Of a DNA stretch of 21,249 nt, positions 541-17,783 are shown one piece after another. Numbering within the stretch: position 1 is the stretch's first letter; every line of letters begins with the position of its first letter. A model generated the notes under the pieces. That model worked only from the letters and a program-made list of their open reading frames with translations. It was not told the DNA's origin and made no database searches. Location of the stretch: IMG/VR virus record IMGVR_UViG_3300047357_000406, positions 1 through 21,249 of that record; one strand, 5' to 3'. This DNA is from a virus. A program made the position numbers and the translations under genes.

Positions 541-567
541 AAAGCGGGGTCCTTACTCCGCTTTTTT
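541..567. terminator. Bidirectional intrinsic terminator
   Basis: Bases 541-550 pair with 555-564 in a 10-bp stem (AAAGCGGGGT with ACTCCGCTTT, one G-T wobble) around a CCTT loop. The stem is followed by T562-567 on the plus strand. On the minus strand the same stem is followed by CTTTATTTTTG, so it can work in both directions. It lies exactly between the convergent ends of the rightward gene ending at 527 and the leftward gene ending at 570. Confidence 0.88.
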
Positions 568-569
568 GT

Positions 570-767
570 TTATAAGAGATCAATAGCCCTTGATGAATCC
601 TCAAAGTTCTTTCCAAGAACAGACCACTCATCGTCACCAGATATTCTATAAATCCATCCAGTCAACTTGTGTCTTTTGCCGTAGGGGTTTGTTGGAATCC
701 ATCGAAGAGAAACTCTCTCGAATCCTTTTTCTTTAAATAGATTAATGAGTTCTTCTTTTTTGCTCAT
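570..767 (-). CDS. Small hypothetical phage protein (65 aa)
   Basis: The start at 767 gives MSKKEELINLFKEKG and then a mixed alpha/beta sequence with RWIPTNPYGKRHKLTGWIYR near the middle. An in-frame ATG at 797 would add ten residues (MKSIGIGILA), but that stretch is covered in another frame by the convincing coding sequence of the upstream small gene, so I prefer 767. Neither start has a strong ribosome-binding site, and coupling through the 26-nt overlap with the upstream gene is likely. It is the last gene of the leftward early operon, just before the terminator. I do not recognise the family. The pattern of basic, Trp and Gly residues could suit a nucleic-acid-binding fold, but no motif is diagnostic. 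Confidence 0.65.
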   Translation of the reverse strand: MSKKEELINLFKEKGFERVSLRWIPTNPYGKRHKLTGWIYRISGDDEWSVLGKNFEDSSRAIDLL

Positions 768-909
768 TGCTAAAATACCAATCCCAATACTCTTCATAGA
801 TTTCTCTAAATTCTTTTAGCGTTGGGATAATTAAATGTGGGGTTTCTTTAAACGAGGCAACATATTTCCTGTAGGCAGTATGTAATTCCTGTTCGCTATA
901 TAAGATCAC
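742..909 (-). CDS. Small hypothetical protein, GTG start (55 aa)
   Basis: Reading from a GTG at 909-907 gives a 55-residue protein with normal coding character: YSEQELHTAYRKYV, then FREIYEEYWDWYFSNEQ, ending KRRTH. The aromatic- and charge-rich helix near residues 33-50 is unlike random reading of AT-rich DNA. No ATG is available in this frame after the upstream stop. An upstream extension of about ten codons (ISFIIIGV) has no good start codon; if used, it would add a hydrophobic segment. The 3' end overlaps the next gene by 26 nt. The family is not recognised. Residue usage is the main evidence that it is real. Confidence 0.6.
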   Translation of the reverse strand: MILYSEQELHTAYRKYVASFKETPHLIIPTLKEFREIYEEYWDWYFSNEQKRRTH

Positions 910-957: not shown

Positions 958-1293
958 TTAGGGACTCTTTTTCTTTCCGCCCTTGCCTGCCCATAATACT
1001 TTTCTCGCCCAGTGGTTTGCAGAGAACTTATCATCCTTCGTAAGCCCACCAGATTTGTTCTTGATTCCTGCGGATCGTTTAAGATAGCTGTCCCTAGCTT
1101 TACTAGAGTAATTATGACCATAGTCTTTATGACCAAATCTGACGACCTTAATTTCATTACCCTTTTTAGCAAGAACCTCCATCTTGTGTTTGCTTGATCC
1201 ACTGTTTCTTTTTGGTTTGTTAAACCCAGGGTACTTCTTACCCCTGTAAACGACTCCGTTTGAAACTCTTTTAGTATCTTTTACTGTAGCCAT
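958..1293 (-). CDS. Basic small phage protein with Lys-rich C-terminus (111 aa)
   Basis: The protein begins MATVKDTKRVSNGVVYRGKKYPG, has a central section VEVLAKKGN-like followed by KVVRFGHKDYGHNY, then SARDSYLKRSAGI-like basic residues, and ends WAGKGGKKKSP. The order RFG, basic helix, K-rich loop, then HWARKVLW is what I remember from small basic proteins often annotated only as DUFs in marine phages. The exact family was not checked. Its ATG overlaps the preceding stop by one base (TAATG). It is the last of five consecutive overlapping or abutting genes for very basic proteins. Nucleic-acid binding is likely from charge but not shown. Confidence 0.8.
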   Translation of the reverse strand: MATVKDTKRVSNGVVYRGKKYPGFNKPKRNSGSSKHKMEVLAKKGNEIKVVRFGHKDYGHNYSSKARDSYLKRSAGIKNKSGGLTKDDKFSANHWARKVLWAGKGGKKKSP

Positions 1294-1535
1294 TATCTTT
1301 TCCTACCCTTATGCAATCCGTGTTTGGCATGTTGTTTACCTTTTGCGGTTGCTTTTCTCTTAACTGTGTTAGCCTTGGACAATTTCTTTCTGCCTTTTGC
1401 TGTAGACTTTAACTTAGCAATAGTCTTGGCTGGAGCATAAACTTCTCCAGTCTTGCTAGATTTTTTACCACTAGCAGTTCTCCATTTTTCTTTTGTCCAT
1501 TTTATTAAAGACTTTTGTGTTTTCTTTAAAGGCAT
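1293..1535 (-). CDS. Very basic small phage protein, DUF5872-like (80 aa)
   Basis: The N-terminal 35 residues contain KWTKEKWRTASGKKSSKTGE, a pattern I associate with DUF5872-type small phage and viral proteins. The rest is a Lys/Ala/Gly-rich tail resembling histone H1 tails. Of 80 residues, 23 are Lys and 5 are Arg, against two acidic residues. No hydrophobic core is evident after residue 45, so the tail is probably disordered until bound to nucleic acid. It starts 3 nt after the stop of the upstream 43-residue gene, and its own stop overlaps the next ATG. A DNA-compaction or packaged-protein role is inference from charge alone. Confidence 0.78.
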   Translation of the reverse strand: MPLKKTQKSLIKWTKEKWRTASGKKSSKTGEVYAPAKTIAKLKSTAKGRKKLSKANTVKRKATAKGKQHAKHGLHKGRKR

Positions 1536-1538
1536 AAC

Positions 1539-1670
1539 TTATTTCTTTTTAGCGTTAGCCCTTCGTCTTACCCTTGAAACTCTTTTCTTGGGCTTAGGTT
1601 TTTTCATTAAGTGTTGTTCTTGTCTGTTAAGAGTCCACTCAATAAACCTGTCAAATAATTTACCAATCAT
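1539..1670 (-). CDS. Basic micro-protein with amphipathic N-terminal helix (43 aa)
   Basis: Read from an ATG at 1670, this 43-residue protein has two parts: MIGKLFDRFIEWTLNRQEQH, an amphipathic helix, and a C-terminal tail with KKPKPKKRVSRVRRRA and a final KKK. It has 16 Lys/Arg and three acidic residues. The start forms an ATGA overlap with the upstream gene's stop, typical of reinitiation, and the downstream gene begins 3 nt after its TAA. The seamless fit between two overlapping neighbours supports it being real. No family is recognised. The helix-plus-basic-tail design could suit membrane-surface or nucleic-acid binding. Confidence 0.72.
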   Translation of the reverse strand: MIGKLFDRFIEWTLNRQEQHLMKKPKPKKRVSRVRRRANAKKK

Positions 1671-1852
1671 TTTTTATATCCTCCGCCCTTTGCTTTATAC
1701 ATTCTAGCCAGCATTTGGGCTTTTCTTGCTGACCACTGACCAGCCCTGCCACCTTTTGATCCTCTCTTTATTTGATTAAAAAGATTTTTACGCATGGTTG
1801 GTTTCGTATAGTTACCCGCAGAGTTTACTGTGGATTTCTTTTTAGAAGCCAT
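1667..1852 (-). CDS. Conserved basic phage protein, NYTKP/GQWSARKAQ type (61 aa)
   Basis: Sixty-one residues with no acidic residue at all and 17 Lys/Arg. The sequence carries AGNYTKPTMRKNLF near residues 12-25 and GGRAGQWSARKAQMLARMY near 34-52. I recognise this pattern from small proteins of unknown function found in very many tailed phages. The ATG overlaps the upstream stop by one base, and the stop overlaps the next start (ATGA). The two conserved blocks suggest a folded helical core with basic ends, unlike its Lys-tail neighbours. The function is unknown to me. Confidence 0.85.
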   Translation of the reverse strand: MASKKKSTVNSAGNYTKPTMRKNLFNQIKRGSKGGRAGQWSARKAQMLARMYKAKGGGYKK

Positions 1853-1968
1853 TACGCTTTTTTCTTAGTCTTCTTTTTACCTTTTAACATGCTTTTGATT
1901 TTAGACATTCCCTTTGCTTTTGGTGGTCTTCCTCTTGTTCTTCCGTATGTTCCTTTTCCTTGTGGCAT
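1852..1968 (-). CDS. AT-hook-like micro-protein MPQGKGTYGR... (38 aa)
   Basis: This 38-residue protein starts MPQGKGTYGRTRGRPPKAKG and continues as a Lys-rich tail (15 Lys/Arg, no acidic residue). The MPQGKGTYG start is a recurring phage micro-protein signature in my memory. The RGRPPKAKG segment (residues 12-20) has the Arg-Gly-Arg-Pro core of AT-hooks, which bind the minor groove of AT-rich DNA. It has a strong ribosome-binding site (AAGGAAATAATT before ATG), the best in this small-protein chain, which suggests it is the entry point for ribosomes translating the overlapping genes downstream. AT-hook identity is a motif match only. Confidence 0.8.
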   Translation of the reverse strand: MPQGKGTYGRTRGRPPKAKGMSKIKSMLKGKKKTKKKA

Positions 1969-1970
1969 AA

Positions 1971-2264
1971 TTATTTCCTTTTAAATTTTCTAACTACTCT
2001 ACTATAGACCATTCCCTTCATACTCTTAAGTGATCTGGTATGATCTGGTAATTCTTCCCATGCTTTCTTTCTTTTTTCCCGAGTCGAAAGCCTTGCAATG
2101 GTATTGCAGACTCCCATCTGCATACATAAAAGATACAACAAATCGTAAAACTTTTCATCTACATCTTCTAAGTATTTTATTCTATCCGCCTGTGATGGCA
2201 TGTTGGCGATCTTATGTGCATAACTCAGCAAATCTATATCTCCAAACTCTGTGAGGTGTTTCAC
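1971..2264 (-). CDS. Hypothetical protein, GTG start (97 aa)
   Basis: The start codon is GTG (CAC at 2262-2264 on the plus strand), overlapping the previous stop as GTGA with AAGAA just upstream. The protein is predicted to be mostly helical: a charged segment ADRIKYLEDVDEKFYDLLYLL near residues 26-46, then a mid-region with Cys, and a strongly basic C-terminal end (MKGMVYSRVVRKFKRK). The Shine-Dalgarno site of the next gene lies inside its last codons. I do not recognise the family. Its position between a DUF3310-like gene and the basic mini-proteins says only that it belongs to the early operon. Confidence 0.75.
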   Translation of the reverse strand: MKHLTEFGDIDLLSYAHKIANMPSQADRIKYLEDVDEKFYDLLYLLCMQMGVCNTIARLSTREKRKKAWEELPDHTRSLKSMKGMVYSRVVRKFKRK

Positions 2265-2554
2265 TTCTTGTTTTGCATGTCATGGTTATACAATGCAAAG
2301 AACCCATAATGAATTACTTTAAGTATGTCAGCCCTGTTCTTGCCTTCTTTTTTGCCATAGCGTTGTGCATATTTCATTACATTACCCATGCAGAATCCCT
2401 CTCCATGACCACTGTCCATAATAAATTCTGTAGCCTGAAACTTATTTAAGGAATAGTGTTGCTCATATGTTTTATCTACATACTTTGCAAACTCATTAAT
2501 TAGTTCGCCTTCGTTATACTTATAGTTTATTTTTTCTTTTTTTCTTTTTGGCAT
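2261..2554 (-). CDS. DUF3310-like phage protein (97 aa)
   Basis: The C-terminal half reads GFCMGNVMKYAQRYGKK (residues 53-69), then RADILKVIHYGFFALYNHD. This matches the layout of DUF3310 proteins, where an F-x-G/L-GN-x-x-KY-x-x-R-x-GKK motif is followed by a D-L-x-KA-x-x-Y helix. I recall T7 gp1.7, a nucleotide kinase, being linked to this family, but that does not prove the same activity here. The N-terminal 10 residues are basic. It overlaps the upstream 47-residue gene by 28 nt and the next gene by GTGA. A role in nucleotide metabolism is a possibility, not a conclusion. Confidence 0.75.
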   Translation of the reverse strand: MPKRKKEKINYKYNEGELINEFAKYVDKTYEQHYSLNKFQATEFIMDSGHGEGFCMGNVMKYAQRYGKKEGKNRADILKVIHYGFFALYNHDMQNKK

Positions 2555-2670
2555 TTATCTTCCTTATTTTTTTTATTAAAAATCTTATCCCAGTTTTCTG
2601 AATATAGTTTCTCGTTAGATTTTCTTCTTACAGAACCCTTGCCTCCTATCCATTCACCTTTATTGCTCAT
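2527..2670 (-). CDS. Small basic phage protein, WDKIF type (47 aa)
   Basis: Starting at the ATG at 2670, the protein reads MSNKGEWIGGKGSVRRKSNE, then a segment with YSENWDKIFNKK, and ends in a Lys run. The pairing of RRK(S/C)NEK with ENWDKIF is one I remember from small uncharacterised phage proteins, which supports the call despite its length. It overlaps the end of the HNH gene by 11 nt and runs 28 nt into the next gene in another frame. In that overlap the sequence is mostly Lys codons, so the exact C-terminus is of little structural weight. No function is known to me. Confidence 0.7.
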   Translation of the reverse strand: MSNKGEWIGGKGSVRRKSNEKLYSENWDKIFNKKNKEDKCQKEKKKK

Positions 2671-2965
2671 TATTTATTAACTCCTTAAGCTTTATTAAAA
2701 GATCAGTTTGCTTTCCATATCTTTTTTCAAACTCTCGTTTAAAGGGATGTCGTGAAACATAAAGATCATTGTTGATTCCTTCTCTGTGGTGCCTGTAGCA
2801 CAACCCAAGCGTCATGAGATGTGCCTGTGGTTTTGTTTTTCCGTCTATGTGGTGGACCTCTGCTGGTGAGTAGCAGTCATAGAAAAGATGGCAGACAATA
2901 CATCCAAAGTTAGATATAGAGTCCATCCAATCCCGCTCTTCTTTATTTGGCGATCTGCCCTGCAT
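2660..2965 (-). CDS. HNH nuclease of the Ref / RecA-dependent type (101 aa)
   Basis: This compact HNH-type protein has CxxC at residues 22 and 25, VHHIDG at 37-42, then HLMTLGLCYRHHREG (49-63) and SRHPFKREFEKRYG (71-84). The Cys/His order and the SRHPF segment match the C-terminal nuclease domain of phage P1 Ref (RecA-dependent nuclease family) and many small phage HNH proteins. The HH at 38-39 would supply the general base, and C22, C25, C56 and nearby His residues probably bind a structural zinc. It lies in the replication operon, where such nucleases could process recombination intermediates. Whether it needs RecA cannot be read from sequence. Confidence 0.87.
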   Translation of the reverse strand: MQGRSPNKEERDWMDSISNFGCIVCHLFYDCYSPAEVHHIDGKTKPQAHLMTLGLCYRHHREGINNDLYVSRHPFKREFEKRYGKQTDLLIKLKELINNEQ

Positions 2966-3101
2966 ACTTCTTTAATAACATTTTATTATTGTTCTTAATA
3001 TATTCTTCAAAGGATATTTCTTTTTCACTATGCTTTCTTCTCTCAGATTTACACTCCTCATGCATCATTCTACAAAAGCTTTTAAAGTTATCATGCTCCA
3101 T
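2943..3101 (-). CDS. Small charged hypothetical protein (52 aa)
   Basis: From the ATG at 3101 this gives 52 residues: MEHDNFKSFCRMMHEECKSE, then RRKHSEKEISFEEYIKNNN and a basic end. The composition (two Cys, charged helix, SFEEYIKNN) resembles small phage proteins that I remember with an SFEEYxxK pattern. The site AGAGAGGAACAGAT before the ATG gives a good ribosome-binding site (GAGAGG). It overlaps the upstream gene by 11 nt and the HNH start by 23 nt. It is probably a single helical hairpin. No function can be assigned. Confidence 0.68.
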   Translation of the reverse strand: MEHDNFKSFCRMMHEECKSERRKHSEKEISFEEYIKNNNKMLLKKYAGQIAK

Positions 3102-3426
3102 ATCTGTTCCTCTCTACTCTTAGGTTTGCCATTTTTGTTCTCCATTCTTCAAACTGCATATCTACTGCTAGTTTTTCTGTTTGTAGAGCATCTAGAGATG
3201 CCTTAGCCACTGCAACCTTCATTGATGCCTGTGCATATTCGTCAGTTGCTTCTGCTTTAGATTTTTGTGAGTTGTAACTTCTTTCACCATCTTCCTTGGC
3301 AATACATAGCTCTCTCCAAAAGACTCTTTTAAGACCAACATCTGCCTTCAGTACATTTACCCTAGCCTCTGATATTTTTGGTATTATGTCTCTTAACTGT
3401 TGATGAAAATTCTCAGATGATTCCAT
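3091..3426 (-). CDS. Helical (coiled-coil-like) phage protein (111 aa)
   Basis: The ATG at 3426 (protein starting MESSENFHQQLRD) is preceded by GGAGAAGAGAAG and is preferred over a TTG eight codons upstream. Nearly the whole chain is predicted helix: Ala/Lys/Glu-rich from about residue 15 to 100, including VAVAKASLDALQTEKLAVD and ending in EEWRTKMANLRVERNRYGA. It overlaps the end of the DnaB gene by 14 nt. Small helical proteins next to phage replication genes are common and mostly uncharacterised. A helicase loader or replication accessory role is conceivable from position, but no AAA+ motif is present, so it is not a DnaC-type ATPase. Confidence 0.72.
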   Translation of the reverse strand: MESSENFHQQLRDIIPKISEARVNVLKADVGLKRVFWRELCIAKEDGERSYNSQKSKAEATDEYAQASMKVAVAKASLDALQTEKLAVDMQFEEWRTKMANLRVERNRYGA

Positions 3427-4717
3427 ATTCTTCTCTTCTCCCGAATGCAATGTCCTCTGGGTCTACGAATTTAGACATAGCCCCATCGAAACTTAATTCA
3501 AATGTTCCCGTTTCTCCCATTCTATTTTTCTTAATTATTATTTCAGAGTTCCCCGTTTCCAGAGCATCGTAATAATCTTCTCTGTATAACATTATAACCA
3601 TATCTGCATCTTGTTCTATAGAACCAGAGTCACGCAGATCGGAAAGCACTGGTCTTTTGTCTGGTCTTGATTCCACTCCTCTGTTTAGCTGTGATAAAGA
3701 TATTACTGGGCACCCTATTTCTTTTGCCAGACCCTTTAAAAGGTTTGATATGTAGGTCATTGATGCTGTCCTGTTGTCAGATGTACTGGGTGCTTTGCTG
3801 GAAGTCATAAGTAGCTGTAGGTAATCCACAACTATTAGATCAATGTCTTTAACAGCCTGAATTGCCTTTGTTTTATTGACCAAAGTTTCAATTGTTATTG
3901 GAGACTTGTCATAAATATATAAGTCACACTTAGACAATCTTTCTTTTGATCTCTCAAAGTTTTTCCAATCAGAGCTTGTTAACTCACCACTCAACATTTT
4001 GTCTGTTGATATTCCAGACTCTGAGCTTATGATCTTTTTGATCAACTGTTCGTTTGTCATTTCCAAACTAAAGATCAAAACATTCTTACCGTTATATATA
4101 TTGTTTGATGCAATATTTAGAGCCCATGTAGTCTTTCCCATTCCTGGTCTTCCAGCAACAATAACTAGATCACCAGGTTTGAAGCCTCTAATCTTTGAGT
4201 CTATGCCTTTAAACCCTGTCTTTACAATGTTCTGTGATTCAGTCCCAGCATTCATTAGTTCCGCATGCACCGTCTCAAGAATATCTCTTGCCTCTCTTGG
4301 TGCACCAGAGTTCTTGGTTATTTTATTTTCAATAAGTAATTGATTAACCCTGTCTACTTTTTCATCTATACTGGTTTTCTCTTCAACAATTACTGGTATT
4401 TCTCTTGCAAGCTTCAGTAGTTTGTTGTTTGCTGTTTTTGAATGCATAAGCTTAAGCCAACTGCTAAAGCCAGCAGGACTAACGCAGTGTGCTGTTGCCT
4501 CTTGAACTTCTTTAAATGCAAAATCGTCTTTGAGGTTGCTTCGTATTGTTACTATGTCGTTTGCATTCTTGTCCAGCATGATCTCATATGCTTGCCTGTA
4601 AGAAAAAAATTCAAAGTCCTCTGGCAATAATCCCTTCTCCTGTGCCTCCTGAAACTTGCCGTAGTCCAATACCATGGACCCAATTGTGTTTGCCTCTAAC
4701 TCATAAATATTATCCAT
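3413..4717 (-). CDS. dnaB: Replicative DNA helicase, DnaB family (434 aa)
   Basis: A full-length RecA-fold hexameric helicase that unwinds the phage replication fork 5' to 3'. Residues 1-100 are the DnaB N-terminal helical domain (YELEANTIGSMVLDYG). The ATPase domain has Walker A GRPGMGKT at 189-196, SLEM at 217-220, Walker B LIVVDYLQLL at 294-303, the DnaB-type SLSQLNRGVESR at 340-351, LSDLRDSGSIEQDAD at 358-372, and KKNRMGETG at 396-404, whose Arg is the expected arginine finger. The length, 434, is close to bacterial DnaB. The start overlaps the end of the O-like initiator by 8 nt, with GAGAGG just upstream, so initiator and helicase are made together. No fused primase domain is present; primase would come from the host or from elsewhere in the genome. 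Confidence 0.98.
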   Translation of the reverse strand: MDNIYELEANTIGSMVLDYGKFQEAQEKGLLPEDFEFFSYRQAYEIMLDKNANDIVTIRSNLKDDFAFKEVQEATAHCVSPAGFSSWLKLMHSKTANNKLLKLAREIPVIVEEKTSIDEKVDRVNQLLIENKITKNSGAPREARDILETVHAELMNAGTESQNIVKTGFKGIDSKIRGFKPGDLVIVAGRPGMGKTTWALNIASNNIYNGKNVLIFSLEMTNEQLIKKIISSESGISTDKMLSGELTSSDWKNFERSKERLSKCDLYIYDKSPITIETLVNKTKAIQAVKDIDLIVVDYLQLLMTSSKAPSTSDNRTASMTYISNLLKGLAKEIGCPVISLSQLNRGVESRPDKRPVLSDLRDSGSIEQDADMVIMLYREDYYDALETGNSEIIIKKNRMGETGTFELSFDGAMSKFVDPEDIAFGRREEYGII

Positions 4718-5342
4718 ATCGCCTCTCTATAATTGATTCAAATTGATTTACACTTAACATCGTTACTAGTTGTGGTTTCTTACTCCAGTAAGATCTAATC
4801 CACTTCTTATGACCCTCTGAGTTTGCCACTTCAAAATATTTATACCAGAACTCCTCTAGCGTTAGATCAATGACAATACCAGTCTTTGGTGAGATGATTC
4901 CTTTTCTCCCCAGCTCACGCAGTTCCTTCCATCTTGGTTCTGCCTTAAATGCATTTGCACTATGCACATAAAATACCTTGTCGCATTGCTCTTTAAAAAT
5001 TTCATTAATTCTATTCAACTCAAGTATATATTTCTTTTTAGTATTACCTTTAGTATTGTAGTCACCTCCCGCCCGTGGGTAGTCACCTCCCGCCCATACA
5101 TTTAATTTGTAAAGATTGCTTGTATTGTTTCTCTTTTCCCAGTCCACATAACCAATATCTTTAAGTGCTTTTAAGTTGCTTTTGATTGCGGTCAAGGACA
5201 AATTTGTTAGCTCCGTAAGTTTTTTATGTGATGGGTATGATTGACCAAACTCGTCTGAGTAATTGGCTAAAACTATTAATATAAGTTTCTGGGTGGGCTT
5301 TACCTCCACCTTCAAGACTTTAGTGATGTATTCTAATGACAT
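4710..5342 (-). CDS. Winged-helix replication initiator, lambda O-like (210 aa)
   Basis: Residues 15-80 form a winged helix-turn-helix: KPTQKLILIVLANYSDEFGQ, then YPSHKKLTELTNLSLTAIKSNLKALKDIGY with a wing around 66-80. This is the layout of the HTH_36 type found in phage replication proteins. A low-complexity linker (84-97, AGGDYPR AGGDYNT) leads to a C-terminal domain with WKELRELGRKG and EFWYKYFEVANSEGHKKWIRSYW. It is the first gene of the leftward operon and directly precedes dnaB, as O precedes P in lambda-like phages. By analogy it would bind an origin and recruit DnaB. The start has AAGGGAAAAT before the ATG. A DnaD-like role is an alternative; the N-terminal domain call is secure, the initiator role is inferred from context. 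Confidence 0.85.
   Translation of the reverse strand: MSLEYITKVLKVEVKPTQKLILIVLANYSDEFGQSYPSHKKLTELTNLSLTAIKSNLKALKDIGYVDWEKRNNTSNLYKLNVWAGGDYPRAGGDYNTKGNTKKKYILELNRINEIFKEQCDKVFYVHSANAFKAEPRWKELRELGRKGIISPKTGIVIDLTLEEFWYKYFEVANSEGHKKWIRSYWSKKPQLVTMLSVNQFESIIERRYG
5058..5095. repeat. Two 17-bp direct repeats, 21-bp spacing, inside the initiator gene (candidate iterons)
   Basis: GTAGTCACCTCCCGCCC occurs exactly at 5058-5074 and again at 5079-5095. The 21-bp period keeps the reading frame and encodes the repeat AGGDYxx. The repeats are GC-rich (11 of 17) inside a very AT-rich gene, and the next 50 bases (about 5005-5056) are almost all A/T. In lambda, the O protein binds iterons inside its own gene beside an AT-rich unwinding region, so this arrangement suggests a replication origin. 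With only two copies it could also be a simple tandem duplication. Confidence 0.6.
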
Positions 5343-9821: not shown

Positions 9822-12800
9822 TTAGTCCCGCTTCTTAGTAGCTTCCATAAAAGCCTTATTAAATCTTTTCATTTCACTTAATATATCAAGTTCAAGTCTG
9901 GCATATTCATCGTGATAATATTCTGGATCTGACTCTTTATATAAATCTTTTGCATCTTGTTGTTGTTTTCTAAGGTTTTGTATGTTTTTTTCAACTCCAT
10001 TTAAAATACTGTTATTGCCATACATTCTTGTGGCTTCTTTATTAAGAAAGTTTCCTACTTCTCTTATAGAACCAATATTGCTGTTGTCATAACCAAGTCT
10101 TTCTAAGAACTGTTCTGGATCTTCTGATGGATCTGGGGATTCAGAAAGTTTTCTATATGCATTTTCTATTCTTTCTACTTTAGATGTATTTTCTTGAAAA
10201 AACTCATAATCAGCCCCATCATCCACGCCAGCAATAAACCTTCTTTGTACAAGAGTTTGCCTTTTCGTTGGTCTATCATAACTAAATAATAGGTTATATC
10301 CCCTTCTACCCGTTCTAAATACACCACCGCCTGCTGCATCTAAAAGATGTTGTATTACAGCTGGATCCCAGTCTTGAGTTCCAGAATAAAACTCATTACC
10401 TCCAGTGGCATTATTAACAGCCTGTGCAGTTCCTTCAATAAAGTCTAAAACTTTTTTACTTTCCCTATACGACTTTGGATCAGTGCTGTTAAACATTGGC
10501 TCATAATAAATTTTACTACCGAAAAAGTTTCTGTTTACCATAAGCTCTGCAATAGGTCTAATTGCTGATGGAGAAATTGTCGGAGATAACTCGGCTATTA
10601 AAGGCTTGTCAGTTTTTTTGTCTGGCAATGCTACTGATAAGGGTGAAAAATTGTGCAAGAAAGATTCTCCAAGATCTATACCAGCCTTAGCGACTGATTT
10701 GTCATAATTATCTAACAGCTTACCCATTGCCATTTCTACTGTAACCCTTCCAGTGTTAGCAAAAATAGCATATCCATATGGCATTGGAATGCCAAGACCT
10801 ATTGGATATTCTCTACCATTTTTTCCTACTACTTTATATCTAGAGCCGCTACCCCATTTTTCAATTTTAAGCTCTCCATCTACAAACTGAGCTTCTGGAA
10901 ACATAATAATATATTTGGTTTGCTTCTCCCAGTCTGGTATTTTTTCGTAGTAAAGCCTGCCATCTTCATCTTCTTCGCTAAATAAAATATTATATAAAGC
11001 ACTAACAGCACCCGTCATTGCAAGGGCTCCTGCTGCTTTTGCTTTTCTAGATGAGAAGTTGTTTGGGGTAAGCCCTCTAAACAAGTTTACTGAACCCTGT
11101 ATACTAGCGTTAAAGAACATATAAAGAGCATTTATATTTGGTCCCATTGTTCCCATTCTATTAAAATTTATTGTTAAGTTTTTAGAAAGTGCAGCAGCTT
11201 TTTCATAAATTGCTGGTGTTGCATTTTCAACCCCTCCCATAGACTCAACATAACCCTCAAAGGCAGTAAACCTAGCAGCGTTTTCAATACCAACATTCAT
11301 ACGCTCAATAACACCTAATACATTTTTTACGCCCTGTTTTGCTGTTCCTTTAAATTTTCCAGCATACATGTCTTGTAGATCTTGAAACTCTTGTGTTAAT
11401 TGATCCATTGTCCTTTGTTCAATGTACCCAGTTTCGCCACCAAACTTTTTAAATTTTCTTGCTAATATTTGCTTTCTAGCCTGACTTGGATTTAGTTTGT
11501 ATTTTTCCTCAACCTGTTTAATAACCTCTGGAGTAATGTCAACACCTTCCATGGCTATAGAATCTAGCTCCATTTTTATATCTTCTTTATTAAGCGATCT
11601 TGATTTCTCAAATTTTACTAAATTAATTGCGTTTGTAAGTATATTTTTAGTTGTATAGTATTTTTTAGATATCTCTAATGCTTGAGCTCTTCCGCCCTCA
11701 ATTTGTTCTTCAGCCATTAAATTGAAGTACCCAGTCTGAACATCTCTCATAAAGTTGTTAATCATGAATGTTGGATCTAGAGACGTATTTACCATTGACA
11801 AATATCTTGTTGCAGCCCTCATGGCTTTCATTCCTGCACTAGTTACGGTAGAGTCAAAGTTATCAAAACCTTGAGCCAGCCTACTGTCATATATTTCAAC
11901 ATATTTTTGTAGACCGTCTTCTTTAAAACCTACCCTTGATTTGCCTTTTACGGGATCCCAACTAGCATCAACCTTTTTAACCTGTCCCACATCTTCAGAA
12001 ACTTCCCAAAGATCACTAGGAAAAGCCCTGGCTAAGTCTGCTAATGATTTTGTTACTCTATTTTTTTCTGCTTCTATTGAGGCGGCGGTAGCTTGTATTA
12101 CAGACTGCTGTAAAGGGGAGCTTGCTTCTGATTCTCTACCAGTAGCTTTTTTAACCAAAGATCCTGATACTGTCATTTGTGTATTTATGCGTTGATTCGT
12201 AGATTTTGGTCTTTCTATTTCTCTACCCGTATCAGGATCAATTAATGTGTCTTCTGCAAAGCCAACTAATGGTACATAATAATTATATCTTGCATCCCAA
12301 TCTAATACAGTTTGTTCTGGAATAAGACCAGAGTCTATATATGTTCTTCTGGTATTATCAATCATTGGTTTTAGATAATCTTCATACGCTTTCAATAAAT
12401 TTTTACCCTTTGTTAATGAGCCTCTGGCTTTCATTTTTTTCATATCAAAAATAACACCATATTTTTTAAGAGTTGCAATTGCATCCTCTGTATAAATACC
12501 TGATCCTCTTTCAGCCTTAGTCATTTTCTTTTGAATGATAGTAAGTTTTCTTCTGGCATTTGCTAAATCTTGTTTGCTAGAAGTTTCACTTGATTCAATT
12601 TCTTTTAATTCTATTTGTGCTTCTAAAAGTTTTTCTTCAAAAAGGGTTGGTAGGTACTTGTTTCTTTCTGGTGCATGTAAGTTGTAAATAAAATGATTAA
12701 ACTCCTCTTCAGAAATATTTTTTTCTGTTAAGAACTCTAACATCGGTATATAAAAATCTTCTCTTATATCTCTAAGCTTGTCTTTCGCACGACCTGAAAA

Positions 12801-15800
12801 AATATCTGTCTGTGTTGTAACTCTCCAGTCTCTGCTATTAGGATCTATACCAACCTCTACTAGTCTATTAATAATTCCGTTAACACCAAACTGTTTGATG
12901 ATATCTTCTTCTATTGTCCAAAGCCTTCCAAATTTATTGGCAACTTTTATATTCATCTCTTCTACAAAATTAGCCCATATGCCAACTTCTTGAGGTGTAA
13001 AATTTCCATTTGGGTCTACGCCACCTGGTGGGGCTGGCGGTGTAGTTGGTGGTGTGTTATTTATAGCCTCATCAATTTTGTCTAATTGATCTTTAGGTAA
13101 GACTATTTTCTTTGCAAGAGGTTTTCCTACTGCTCCTGGTTCTGATCCTGTGCTTGGGAAGCTTGCGTCTGGTCCTTCTGACTGGACTTCGTTTCTGTAC
13201 TTGTAGAGGACATTGTCAACTTCTGACCTGATACCATCAAGCCTTTTGAGTATGCTTCCTTCCTCAAGTCTTCCTTGTATGTAACCTTCTCCATCTGTAT
13301 CCTCGTTCCAATTGTTAGTTAGGTACTGTGTATTATATTTTATATTGTGTTCAACAGCAAACCCAACACCCTCAACCCCAACAGAGTTTAATGCTTGCTC
13401 TACTTTTTCATTAAAACTTTCTATAGAATTTCCATCAAATTTAAAGTTTATAGCAGATATTGAGTCTTGATCCATTTGTGTAAATCCATCAATACCGACT
13501 TTTTCAAAAGCTGTTTGTAGTTGTTTTCTTAATATTCCAGAAATTTCAAAGGGTGCGTTGACGTTTGTGTCTATAAATTTGATGTATGACCCAACATTAA
13601 CTGACTCATTGTTAACATCAAAAGCATCAGCGTCTGATATATTTTCATTAGAAACAAAATATGGCATGGCTTCTTGTCTAAATACATAACCCCAGGCTCT
13701 TAAAAAGTCATCAGCATAAGAAAGATCCAGTTCGCTAAATTGTTGTTGCCCCTGAACTTTTTCTAAAATTAAACTTGTTAATATGTTTGGATTTACTTTG
13801 CCATCATAGGCACCAAAGCTATGTGAAAATTTATACAAACCCGTTCCAGGCAAGGCATCTAAGATTTTATTTTTTCCCTCAGATGTTGTTATTACCTCTA
13901 GAAGTTCTCTAGTTAGCTTTGTTTTTTGTCTTGCATTTAATTTTTCTGCAAAAGCAAACTCTGATAGTTTTTCTGTTGGTATTACTTCACCAGTAACAAT
14001 AGCAGAGGCTTTATCTAAATAAGTCTCATAACCAATATACTCAGGCGTTTTACCCTGGCTTACCATTTCTTTATTTCTAACCCATGTCCAGAGAACTGCC
14101 TGCATCTCCATTGGAGTAAGGTTGTCATTATTTTTTTGATTATATGCTTCAGTAGCTTTTTGTATTACCGCTGTTCCGTATCTGTGGTTTGCTATAGCTC
14201 CCTGACCTTTTTTAAACCCAAGCATTTTAAACATCCAGGTATCCATAGTCACAGCATTGGGATTTTTTGCAGTTAAGTTCTCATAAAAACTTTGTAACTT
14301 AAACCCTACGCCGTTTAGTTTTTGACCAAAATCCTGAGCTTCCATTGCTTTCTTTGCATATTCACCAGCAAGCGGTTGGAATCCTGGCAGCGGATCTCCG
14401 CCCTTAGCTAAAGATACTAAAGATCTTAATGTATAAGCTAGATTGGTTTCTACAGGTGTTTGCGAGGAATAGATCGTTAACATTCTTAAAACATTTTCTT
14501 TAAGAACTGGGTCACCAGCAACCAAAGAGTCTATTTCTTGATTTATATTTCTATACCAGTGTCTGCTCTCGTCAAGAAGTGATATATCTTTTTGTTCTGC
14601 CATTTTGACAAGATCATTTACAAGGCTGTCAAAGTCTTTTTGAGTATTTTTAAATTGTCCTGGTGCTGTTCTTGGTGCACCAGCATAAAGATTGTTTTTA
14701 TCAGGCTTAAGTTCGCCTATTGCTACATAGTTTGATTCTTGTATTGAAGGTCGAATGTCGTCCCTGTCTCGTTTGACTGGAGGTTCACCCATTCTTTCAC
14801 TGGTTGATTCGTATCCAAACTGTTCTTGAGCTTGCTCTCTAGTAAGTCTCTTGGTGTATACTTTAGAATCTGCATCGGAACGAGGTGATTGAAACGCGTC
14901 TCGTAATCCGATACCAGTTTGTGAAAGTTTGTAATTAATAAAGACATTATTTATATCCTGTAAAAGCTTCTTGCTACTTGGATAATTATCCAATAGCTTA
15001 GGGTTAGTATAATTGATTCCTATCATTTGTGCGAATACTTCAGTTGACAAGTCTGTGCGATCCTGTTTATTTACTAATGCACTTTTATCAAGGGTTGGAA
15101 AGTTTTTATATGTATCTATTAAGTATCTGTCAAATGGGTAACTAAATAACTGACCAGAATATGGGCTATTTGAGTTTCTGTTTTTTATATAAAGATTAAA
15201 CATTTCCTGCATCACTGGACCGCCAGTTTCAAATTTATAATCTCTAATTTCCTCAACGGTTATTTCGGACATTGACTGCTTGTTGTTTTTTCTAAGAATA
15301 TTTAAAAATTCAAACGAAAAATCAATAGGTTCAAACAATGGCGATGATGCTGATAAAGGTTCTTGTTGTGCTGACTGTTGCTTGAATTGTACAAAACCAA
15401 AATCTATATGATGACCAATCTCATGAGCCAAAGTTGATTGCAGTTCAGCTAAAGAACCAAGATTAAAGTCATTTTGATTTATATTAGAAAAATCAGCAGC
15501 ACTCTCTTGTGTTACAAATTGTTGTGGAATTTGTGATGCTGCTAATGTTATATATTTATCTGACGCACCAGGAAAGTATTGTCCATAGGATGTGTTTTCT
15601 TGCATCTCAAATTCTTGCATGTTGCTATGAATACCTATAAATGGTATTCCTTCAAACACTTGCTTTGGCAAGCCCATTTCAATTAAATTGTTTACAACCT
15701 CTGAAACAGCGTTGATTTCTGTATCATTAAAATCTCTAATAGATGGAAGCTCTGCGGCACCTGAATAAGTTCTTCCATAATTTTCTACAGTATCTTTATA

Positions 15801-17783
15801 TTCTTTGTCTTGCAAATTTATGCCAAAATTATCAATATCTTCAAATGTTGCTAAGTTAGCTTTATTAAATTTTCTTGGTATAACAATATCTTGTTTTACA
15901 TTATTAATAGATGTTGCTGACGATGGCTCTTGCAGTCTCTTGTCAATAAATGCTTTATTTGCACCTATGTCTGCTTTTCTTTTTGCCTCGTTACCTTCTA
16001 GACCAATATCTTCGCCAAATTCTGGCTTAAAGGTTTTTTGTGCCAGTGGTTTTTGCGGCATTTGTTTTTTAACTAAAAAGTCTTTCAAGGTTTTTTGATC
16101 ATCTCTTAACTGCTGTAGCTTTGTTTCATCTGTAGCTTGTTCTATTTGTAAACCATATTCGTTAATTCTTTTTTGTATCTCGGCATCAAATGTTTGCGGG
16201 TCCAAAGCCTCTGTTAAACCCATAATATTTAAAACCTTTTTACCTTCTGTTAAAATTGTTTTTAAATCAAGACCCTCAAGCTCACCAATTTCTGCTTGTA
16301 AGTCTACAGCTAAATCTATTTCTTCTTGTGTTAGCTCTTCGTTGTAAGGATTATTTTTAATAATTTGTCCAGCAAGAAATTCATCAGCCAACATTTCTGG
16401 CATCACAAAATTATAGTATTCTCTTGATGGTGCAATAAATTCTTCAGCTGTTCTATCCTCTAGAGGAGTAGATGATCCACCTTCTTTTCTAAGAATTGAT
16501 TTACCTGGATCAAATCTTTTGCCAACATCAAGCCACTTATATGTATCATCAATTGCTTTGTAATTTGCATTTACTTGTTTTGCATTAATGTCTAATTCTC
16601 TTGCTATTCTTCTTGCAAGATTTGGGTCTAAAGAATTTAATGCTTTCTTAATGTCTGGTGCAAAGGCTGCTGAACCCTGCATGCTAACCATTCCACCAGC
16701 ACCAACAATAGTAGCTATAGATGTCATGTAAGCATTATCAAGCATAACATCAATCCAAGAAGGACCGTCATAAGCTGGGTTGTCTTTGTTTGCATATGCA
16801 AAAGCTAAGTCAGTATTCACCCCGCTAAGTGCATTGTTTGTTTCTTGAAATATTGTATTAACATTTTCGCCAATTAATTCTAAAGAGGCTGTTGTAAAAC
16901 CATCACGAATAAAAGTTTGGACAGTGCTCCCGTTTGTCTTCCAATATTTTTTCATTGTTTTTGAAACAAATGGTAGTGGAACCAACTCAGTTCCCATTTC
17001 AGACAGGGCATTAAGTGTAGAGTTTCTCATTGCAGCACCATGATCTAGACCACTCATGCGAGCCTGTCTATATGAAGCTGAAGACTCGTAAGCACCAAAC
17101 ACTGGTATCATCCCATACATAAATGAAGGGTTTTTTGTTCCCAAAGTAGCTAAAATACCTGGTGTCATCATAAACAAACTATCAAAACCAGCAGACAAAG
17201 CCTTTTCTGTTTTCTTTAATCCCATAGACTTGTCTATATCAGACATTCTTTCGGTCAATTGATTGTATTGATCGGTGTTTGTTTCTAAAAATTCTACATA
17301 CCCATCTATAATTTTTTGTTTTTCAACAGGCGGTAATTCGTTAAATGACTCTTCTTTTTCTTTTCTGGCTGCTTCTATTAAGTTTTTTTCTTGAGACATT
17401 CCAAGTCTTGATGCAGCCCCTTCTCCAAACCCAATTCCAAAAGAGGAGCGATCTGGGGTTTTACCCATTTCTTTTCTAATTTTTGTTTCTTGGAGTTGAT
17501 AATTTAGATTATTAGCAAAAAGTTTTGCTCCAGATGGTGCCTTTCTAGCGGATGCCGCGAATGACTTTCCAAGAGAGGTTGGACCCCGCATTGTTTGCCT
17601 TATTGAAAAAGGACCAAACCCAGCTCCTGGTAGATCTAAAAATGTGTCAATAAAGGTTGATTCATCTTTTTGATTATCTTCTGGTAAGCTTGTTTGCGGG
17701 TCTAGATTAAGAACATCTTTTACTAAATCGTCCTTGTCTTCTTCTGGAATAAGCGAGAATGGATCAAGTCTTGGATCTTCCAT
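9822..17783 (-). CDS. Giant polyvalent virion protein with zincin-like metallopeptidase region (2653 aa)
   Basis: A very long protein of the large polyvalent type, probably packaged in the particle and ejected with the DNA. Visible parts, in order: an Asp/Glu-rich start; a hydrophobic helical region near 205-260 (GMIPVFGAYESSASYRQARM); a zincin motif HEIGHH at 787-792 with a possible third ligand E915 in STEVFAQMIG; a conserved helical block near 1030-1245 (SSQTPVETNLAYTLRSL, MDTWMFKMLG), DUF7178-like in my recollection; a Pro linker near 1575-1590; a region near 1600-1850 with NLHAPERNKYLP; an LPD38-like block near 1985-2235 (MVNTSLDPTFMINNFMRD and FNASIQGSVNLFRGL); then a hydrophobic stretch and a conserved tail. 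It starts 4 nt after the previous stop, with TTGAGG upstream. Domain names are by memory of motifs; the gene and its size are certain. Confidence 0.93.
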   Translation of the reverse strand: MEDPRLDPFSLIPEEDKDDLVKDVLNLDPQTSLPEDNQKDESTFIDTFLDLPGAGFGPFSIRQTMRGPTSLGKSFAASARKAPSGAKLFANNLNYQLQETKIRKEMGKTPDRSSFGIGFGEGAASRLGMSQEKNLIEAARKEKEESFNELPPVEKQKIIDGYVEFLETNTDQYNQLTERMSDIDKSMGLKKTEKALSAGFDSLFMMTPGILATLGTKNPSFMYGMIPVFGAYESSASYRQARMSGLDHGAAMRNSTLNALSEMGTELVPLPFVSKTMKKYWKTNGSTVQTFIRDGFTTASLELIGENVNTIFQETNNALSGVNTDLAFAYANKDNPAYDGPSWIDVMLDNAYMTSIATIVGAGGMVSMQGSAAFAPDIKKALNSLDPNLARRIARELDINAKQVNANYKAIDDTYKWLDVGKRFDPGKSILRKEGGSSTPLEDRTAEEFIAPSREYYNFVMPEMLADEFLAGQIIKNNPYNEELTQEEIDLAVDLQAEIGELEGLDLKTILTEGKKVLNIMGLTEALDPQTFDAEIQKRINEYGLQIEQATDETKLQQLRDDQKTLKDFLVKKQMPQKPLAQKTFKPEFGEDIGLEGNEAKRKADIGANKAFIDKRLQEPSSATSINNVKQDIVIPRKFNKANLATFEDIDNFGINLQDKEYKDTVENYGRTYSGAAELPSIRDFNDTEINAVSEVVNNLIEMGLPKQVFEGIPFIGIHSNMQEFEMQENTSYGQYFPGASDKYITLAASQIPQQFVTQESAADFSNINQNDFNLGSLAELQSTLAHEIGHHIDFGFVQFKQQSAQQEPLSASSPLFEPIDFSFEFLNILRKNNKQSMSEITVEEIRDYKFETGGPVMQEMFNLYIKNRNSNSPYSGQLFSYPFDRYLIDTYKNFPTLDKSALVNKQDRTDLSTEVFAQMIGINYTNPKLLDNYPSSKKLLQDINNVFINYKLSQTGIGLRDAFQSPRSDADSKVYTKRLTREQAQEQFGYESTSERMGEPPVKRDRDDIRPSIQESNYVAIGELKPDKNNLYAGAPRTAPGQFKNTQKDFDSLVNDLVKMAEQKDISLLDESRHWYRNINQEIDSLVAGDPVLKENVLRMLTIYSSQTPVETNLAYTLRSLVSLAKGGDPLPGFQPLAGEYAKKAMEAQDFGQKLNGVGFKLQSFYENLTAKNPNAVTMDTWMFKMLGFKKGQGAIANHRYGTAVIQKATEAYNQKNNDNLTPMEMQAVLWTWVRNKEMVSQGKTPEYIGYETYLDKASAIVTGEVIPTEKLSEFAFAEKLNARQKTKLTRELLEVITTSEGKNKILDALPGTGLYKFSHSFGAYDGKVNPNILTSLILEKVQGQQQFSELDLSYADDFLRAWGYVFRQEAMPYFVSNENISDADAFDVNNESVNVGSYIKFIDTNVNAPFEISGILRKQLQTAFEKVGIDGFTQMDQDSISAINFKFDGNSIESFNEKVEQALNSVGVEGVGFAVEHNIKYNTQYLTNNWNEDTDGEGYIQGRLEEGSILKRLDGIRSEVDNVLYKYRNEVQSEGPDASFPSTGSEPGAVGKPLAKKIVLPKDQLDKIDEAINNTPPTTPPAPPGGVDPNGNFTPQEVGIWANFVEEMNIKVANKFGRLWTIEEDIIKQFGVNGIINRLVEVGIDPNSRDWRVTTQTDIFSGRAKDKLRDIREDFYIPMLEFLTEKNISEEEFNHFIYNLHAPERNKYLPTLFEEKLLEAQIELKEIESSETSSKQDLANARRKLTIIQKKMTKAERGSGIYTEDAIATLKKYGVIFDMKKMKARGSLTKGKNLLKAYEDYLKPMIDNTRRTYIDSGLIPEQTVLDWDARYNYYVPLVGFAEDTLIDPDTGREIERPKSTNQRINTQMTVSGSLVKKATGRESEASSPLQQSVIQATAASIEAEKNRVTKSLADLARAFPSDLWEVSEDVGQVKKVDASWDPVKGKSRVGFKEDGLQKYVEIYDSRLAQGFDNFDSTVTSAGMKAMRAATRYLSMVNTSLDPTFMINNFMRDVQTGYFNLMAEEQIEGGRAQALEISKKYYTTKNILTNAINLVKFEKSRSLNKEDIKMELDSIAMEGVDITPEVIKQVEEKYKLNPSQARKQILARKFKKFGGETGYIEQRTMDQLTQEFQDLQDMYAGKFKGTAKQGVKNVLGVIERMNVGIENAARFTAFEGYVESMGGVENATPAIYEKAAALSKNLTINFNRMGTMGPNINALYMFFNASIQGSVNLFRGLTPNNFSSRKAKAAGALAMTGAVSALYNILFSEEDEDGRLYYEKIPDWEKQTKYIIMFPEAQFVDGELKIEKWGSGSRYKVVGKNGREYPIGLGIPMPYGYAIFANTGRVTVEMAMGKLLDNYDKSVAKAGIDLGESFLHNFSPLSVALPDKKTDKPLIAELSPTISPSAIRPIAELMVNRNFFGSKIYYEPMFNSTDPKSYRESKKVLDFIEGTAQAVNNATGGNEFYSGTQDWDPAVIQHLLDAAGGGVFRTGRRGYNLLFSYDRPTKRQTLVQRRFIAGVDDGADYEFFQENTSKVERIENAYRKLSESPDPSEDPEQFLERLGYDNSNIGSIREVGNFLNKEATRMYGNNSILNGVEKNIQNLRKQQQDAKDLYKESDPEYYHDEYARLELDILSEMKRFNKAFMEATKKRD

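Follow-up and report, generated by a model that had tools for sequence, protein, structure and literature searches.

A marine phage record of 21,249 bases, analysed here along its whole length (the window), carries on its minus strand a cassette of five open reading frames (ORFs; b1–b5) for small, highly basic proteins. Profile comparisons indicate that two of the five proteins, b2 and b4, each correspond to one half of a single cellular DUF5872-like protein, a finding that is new. A third, b5, is by its family matches a free-standing copy of a domain associated with head-maturation proteases, and this link is new as well. The best reading of the cassette, which we put forward tentatively and as somewhat short of probable, is that its products act together in binding nucleic acid during head assembly or DNA packaging.

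Layout of the cassette and evidence for coding

The five abutting or overlapping minus-strand ORFs described in a first-pass annotation (38, 61, 43, 80 and 111 aa) were confirmed. They lie towards the end of an operon that has the following parts, in the direction of transcription:

1971..5342, minus strand: upstream part of the operon, with an O-like replication protein, a DnaB-type helicase, small genes, an HNH-like gene, DUF3310 and a 97-aa gene
1852..1968, minus strand: b1, 38 aa; MP.G.GTYG...GRP peptide with a lysine tail
1667..1852, minus strand: b2, 61 aa; corresponds to the N-terminal half of a cellular DUF5872-like protein
1539..1670, minus strand: b3, 43 aa; restricted to the window's own phage group
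1293..1535, minus strand: b4, 80 aa; corresponds to the C-terminal half of a cellular DUF5872-like protein
958..1293, minus strand: b5, 111 aa; domain elsewhere fused to head-maturation proteases
742..909, minus strand: small ORF between b5 and the 75-aa gene, retained in part of the group
570..797, minus strand: conserved 75-aa gene closing the operon, co-conserved downstream of b5 in the window's group (pN/pS 0.29)
541..564, no strand assigned: terminator-like palindrome of 10 pairs, then T-rich sequence, between converging operons

The overlaps and gap reported earlier were upheld, with junctions of −1 nt (b1/b2), −4 nt (b2/b3), +3 nt (b3/b4) and −1 nt (b4/b5). The ten closest relatives (L087–L095, and L006 as far as its sequence reaches) have exactly these four junctions; group-wide, the b4–b5 junction stays at −1 and the b2–b3 junction at −4 (once −1), and b3–b4 is variable. 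Lysine plus arginine had been counted correctly for b1–b4 (15/38, 17/61, 16/43 and 28/80) and makes up 30 of the 111 residues of b5, compared with 7–23% in most other proteins of the window. Aspartate plus glutamate number 0, 0, 3, 2 and 7 in b1–b5, and the isoelectric points are 11.8, 11.6, 11.9, 11.6 and 10.5. Pooled pN/pS against 8–10 relatives was 0.10 for b2, 0.20 for b3, 0.08 for b4 and 0.13 for b5, values that show the signature of strong purifying selection on these four genes and not on the tiny b1, for which it was 0.50. On the basis of these pooled values, b1–b5 are genes rather than chance ORFs. An NCBIfam search gave no match for any of the five proteins.

A strong ribosome-binding site had been assigned to the first gene only, which proved wrong. 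AAGGA lies approximately 8 nt upstream of b1, b3 also has a strong Shine–Dalgarno sequence (GGAGG, 9 nt before its ATG and inside the end of b2), and TAGGA is found upstream of b5; the Shine–Dalgarno sequence is weak at b2 and b4 only, with nothing of note there. Synthesis of the proteins in fixed proportion through translational coupling, as proposed in the first-pass annotation, is possible for b2 and b4, and is weakened by the Shine–Dalgarno sequences of b3 and b5. The palindrome at 541–564 is at most suggestive of the end of the transcript, perhaps as a bidirectional terminator: terminator-like sites in the window are not more numerous than in shuffled sequences. Promoter-like sites in the window occur at chance level, and an Rfam search matched no family.

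Comparisons of the DnaB and of a 559-aa protein did not place the phage in any named group. Elsewhere in the window (9822–17783) a 2653-aa protein is encoded that has relatives only in the function-less phage families phrog_14770 and phrog_616.

b2 and b4 as parts of a DUF5872-like protein

Both proteins belong, near full length, to existing phage families: b2 to phrog_17747 (E = 4.5e-35; residues 2–60 on 5–63 of 63) and b4 to phrog_14910 (E = 1.5e-14; residues 1–72 on 1–67 of 80). Neither family carries a function or records a relation to the other. The consensus of b2 reads GNYTKP..R..LF..I....KGG..GQWSARKAQ.LA..YK..GGGY, and the b2 alignment, searched against bacterial and archaeal genomes, yielded 80 loci. 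The phage b2 and phage b4 profiles matched the same cellular ORFs (for example, L247, b2 at 4e-21 and b4 at 5e-20; L236, b2 at 3e-24 and b4 at 1e-20), and at 23 cellular loci the two stand in one ORF in the order b2–b4. Fusions in this order occur in Corallococcus, Spirosoma, Fibrella, Fibrisoma, acidobacteria, Rubrobacter, a member of the Bdellovibrionales and Verrucomicrobia. In Pelagibacteraceae single-cell genomes the fusion is reversed (b4–b2), and both halves are adjacent in 12 of the 99 genomes sampled for this family. Free reshuffling of halves is a usual sign of domains that act jointly; given that these halves occur split, as b2–b4 and as b4–b2, b2 and b4 probably work together. Some loci in the genome collection are clearly phage on reading of the sequence, with a terminase-like gene followed directly by b2 and b4 (L216 and L223).

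The Pfam model of DUF5872 (PF19197) did not match b2 or b4 of the window. It matched 2 of 34 b4 relatives (best E = 3.2e-5), and one fused cellular protein (L240) passed its cut-off (28.6 versus 27.5 bits), other fused cellular proteins scoring 21.7–22.8 bits or giving no match. The model covers parts of both halves (residues 14–125 of L235 and 94–194 of L240). Searched directly against three genomes that hold the gene, it gave no match anywhere, and it is therefore too narrow to be used as evidence of absence. By these comparisons b2 and b4 are related to DUF5872 distantly and in split form, and fall below the Pfam threshold for membership: conserved core residues are common to them and the cellular DUF5872 proteins, whose function is unknown, whereas the phage versions are divided between two genes and are far more basic. 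The literature on DUF5872 consisted of one paper mentioning the family, and the accessible portion of that paper gives no function.

The b4–b2 fusion of Pelagibacteraceae (11155–11571 of L256; 5995–6411 of L257) lies within a group of chromosomal genes that, on reading of the sequence only, seems to comprise an FAD oxidoreductase, DUF1365, cyclopropane-fatty-acid synthase, DUF3833, two short-chain dehydrogenases and TspO, possibly a stress island. In some phages, b2 also forms the C terminus of longer glycine/lysine-rich proteins (L047, 4806–5174; L061, 4269–5174). At two loci b4 stands at the start of a much longer protein, the remainder of which, in L073, partly resembles tape-measure proteins.

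A domain shared with head-maturation proteases

b5 matches phrog_9979 (3.8e-14; b5 residues 4–105 on 172–265 of 278) and phrog_220, annotated as 'minor head protein and DNA pilot' (5.8e-14). It is also approximately 39% identical, over 108 residues, to the C-terminal part of ORF125 (gp125) of phage ICP1, a protease presumed to degrade scaffold (review, PMC9040626). Residues 29–183 of ICP1 ORF125 match the head-maturation protease family phrog_3017 (6e-13) and residues 184–261 the b5-type family phrog_7595. The C-terminal domain is alike in gp125, phrog_9979 and b5, but b5 stands free, without the protease part. In Vibrio phage 1.101.O the b5 domain precedes a protease-like region and is encoded just after the portal gene.

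The predicted fold of b5 is confident (pLDDT 84, pTM 0.75) and consists of a compact beta-plus-helix domain. In the BFVD viral library the model matches a phage XkdF-like protein and ICP1 ORF125, as well as small iridovirus and Tunisvirus proteins (W8QE68 and V9SE36), suggesting that large DNA viruses of eukaryotes and tailed phages have this domain in common. Among solved structures, no sequence match was found for b2, b5 or the family profiles, and no fold match (PDB) for the models of b5 or of b2–b4, the latter being of middling confidence (pLDDT 76, pTM 0.51). The lack of a similar solved structure for b5 or b2–b4 and the middling b2–b4 model both count against the packaging reading.

The association with proteases could also be explained if the proteins were assembly adaptors, that is, basic proteins whose partners are not DNA but acidic proteins of the scaffold, portal or core, with b5 as a docking domain that brings cargo into the prohead; in the ICP1 relatives this cargo would be the protease. 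The position of the b5 domain, N- or C-terminal to protease-like regions encoded between the portal gene and genes for scaffold or capsid, fits such a role, as does its predicted compact fold, which is not that of a disordered tail. Adaptors of this kind would leave the cellular b2–b4 proteins unexplained, as these have no phage head to assemble, and we consider this account decidedly unlikely.

Gene order and neighbourhood in other phages

Retention of the gene set in related phages, named in the first-pass annotation as a check on its reading, was borne out by 78 viral loci that had been drawn by b2 alone and do not belong to the window's group. In all 78, b4 comes after b2 on the same strand (median gap, 6 nt), and b4 was found within 2.5 kb in each of the 65 loci that have at least 2.5 kb downstream of b2. 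b5 lies at most 3 kb from the pair, before or after it, in 56 of the 78 loci, and a b1-type motif is present in 13; the order of b5 and b1 varies across relatives. Of the 16 isolate records that contain b4, 15 contain b2 too, in every case upstream and on the same strand. The pair is found in HMO-2011-type phages, Zobellviridae (MEP401) and other phages of SAR11, Roseobacter and Methylophilales. In HMO-2011 itself (L261, 6386–7468), a gene annotated as methanesulfonate monooxygenase hydroxylase alpha subunit is located between b2 and b4.

We tallied the nearest genes of 130–700 aa on either side of b2. In these raw counts, which carry no background control, the most-matched families were the terminase large subunit, portal and head–tail adaptor, and endolysins were also matched. 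Annotated isolates give the same picture: the cassette has spanin, endolysin and terminase genes nearby in CRP-345, terminase and portal genes in MEP401, and lysozyme and terminase genes in HMO-2011.

In the window's group, by contrast, the cassette follows the replication genes in one operon, without adjacent head genes. Close relatives retain the entire operon order, from the O-like replication protein and DnaB through b1–b5 to the 75-aa gene; distant members of the group retain b5 and the replication genes, with b2 and b4 in only some. The location within a replication operon argues against packaging and favours the main rival explanation, in which the proteins would remain in the cell, unpackaged, and bind replicating phage DNA, the host chromosome or RNA during infection (for protection, compaction or takeover). 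Also consistent with an intracellular role, the cellular relatives of b2 and b4 are encoded on the chromosomes of ordinary bacteria and in some cases carry lysine/alanine tails or a Rho_N/SAP-like extension, and their chromosomal location implies that the ancestral role was inside cells. An intracellular role fits poorly with the placement of the set beside packaging and lysis genes in many other phages and with the joining of the b5 domain to head proteases; we regard it as doubtful, though a real contender.

Charge and possible function

Net charge per residue is +0.26 and +0.27 in phage b2 and b4 versus +0.10 in the cellular fusions, and because the cellular relatives are so much less basic, charge does not define the fold. 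Their lower charge, together with their lack of a known function, weighs against the packaging reading. Many of the fused cellular homologues nevertheless have long lysine/alanine-rich tails, and the C-terminal extension of one (L220) matches Rho_N and, weakly, SAP. A nucleic-acid-binding role of the set is supported indirectly, by the charge of the phage proteins and by these tails and this extension. The first-pass annotation was right about the general class and about a real, selected gene set, and misread the specific motifs; condensing of phage DNA, which it had suggested, is possible.

The five proteins also resemble small ribosomal proteins in size and charge, and could be directed at RNA or the ribosome in a takeover of translation. 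The resemblance would be in charge only: no ribosomal family was matched in Pfam or NCBIfam, and the context in other phages is linked to packaging, making such a role very improbable.

In the packaging reading, which we prefer, b2 and b4, split from one DUF5872-like protein and made more basic, would probably form one complex. b5 is the stand-alone form of a domain found joined to the head-maturation protease in other phages, and b1, joined by b3 in the window's group, would serve as short basic accessory peptides. The set would bind phage DNA, in the interior of the prohead or during the packaging step, and would be expressed late and present in the head. In favour of this reading are the b2–b4 fusions in cells, the constant b2–b4 order in phages, the joining of the b5 domain to head proteases, the terminase, portal, head–tail adaptor and endolysin genes near b2, the tape-measure-like remainder of the b4 protein in L073 and the b1-like gene beside the portal gene of HTVC115P. 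A literature search for virion proteomics of HMO-2011-type phages found none.

Small basic virus proteins, such as those of chloroviruses and P6.9, have been proposed to neutralise packaged DNA, and no evidence is said to exist for basic proteins contributing much to the neutralisation of phage DNA (PMC3281028). Entry of the proteins studied here into the head would contradict the latter statement. Any likeness to the basic DNA-binding proteins of chlorovirus virions or to the protamine-like P6.9 of baculoviruses would be in working only, with no sequence relation shown. The wider proposal of a dedicated charge-neutralising protein set for DNA packaging in abundant marine tailed phages, consisting of a split DUF5872 protein and a head-protease-associated domain, is in our estimate unlikely. 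Carriers of b2–b4 are very abundant in the ocean, so any function of the pair would apply widely. In addition, the split/fused relation ties the phage families phrog_17747 and phrog_14910 to the bacterial DUF5872 family, all three uncharacterised, and makes their functions jointly testable.

b1, b3 and motif assignments

Two motifs had been pointed out in the first-pass annotation, an AT-hook-like sequence in b1 and an H1-like lysine/alanine tail in b4, and neither withstood comparison with relatives. An alignment of 15 sequences defines a b1 family with an invariant MP.G.GTYG...GRP and a basic tail, the motif occurring in 29 of 160 viral loci. AT-hook proteins are likewise basic and share the GRP core, but b1 scored 15.7 bits against a Pfam AT_hook cut-off of 17.4 bits and the arginine of RGRP precedes GRP in only 2 of the 15 family members; b1 was rejected as an AT-hook protein. 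The lysine/alanine stretch of the 80-aa b4 aligns within its conserved domain, which has invariant W, Y, P, G and Q columns and is not a low-complexity tail. b4 was accordingly rejected as a histone H1-like tail protein: H1-like proteins are also basic, and lysine/alanine tails are present in cellular b2–b4 relatives but not in the b4 domain.

Relatives of b3 were sought and none was found outside the window's group, and a long relative of b1 (L022) had no match among phage records. In HTVC115P, a b1-like gene adjoins the portal gene.
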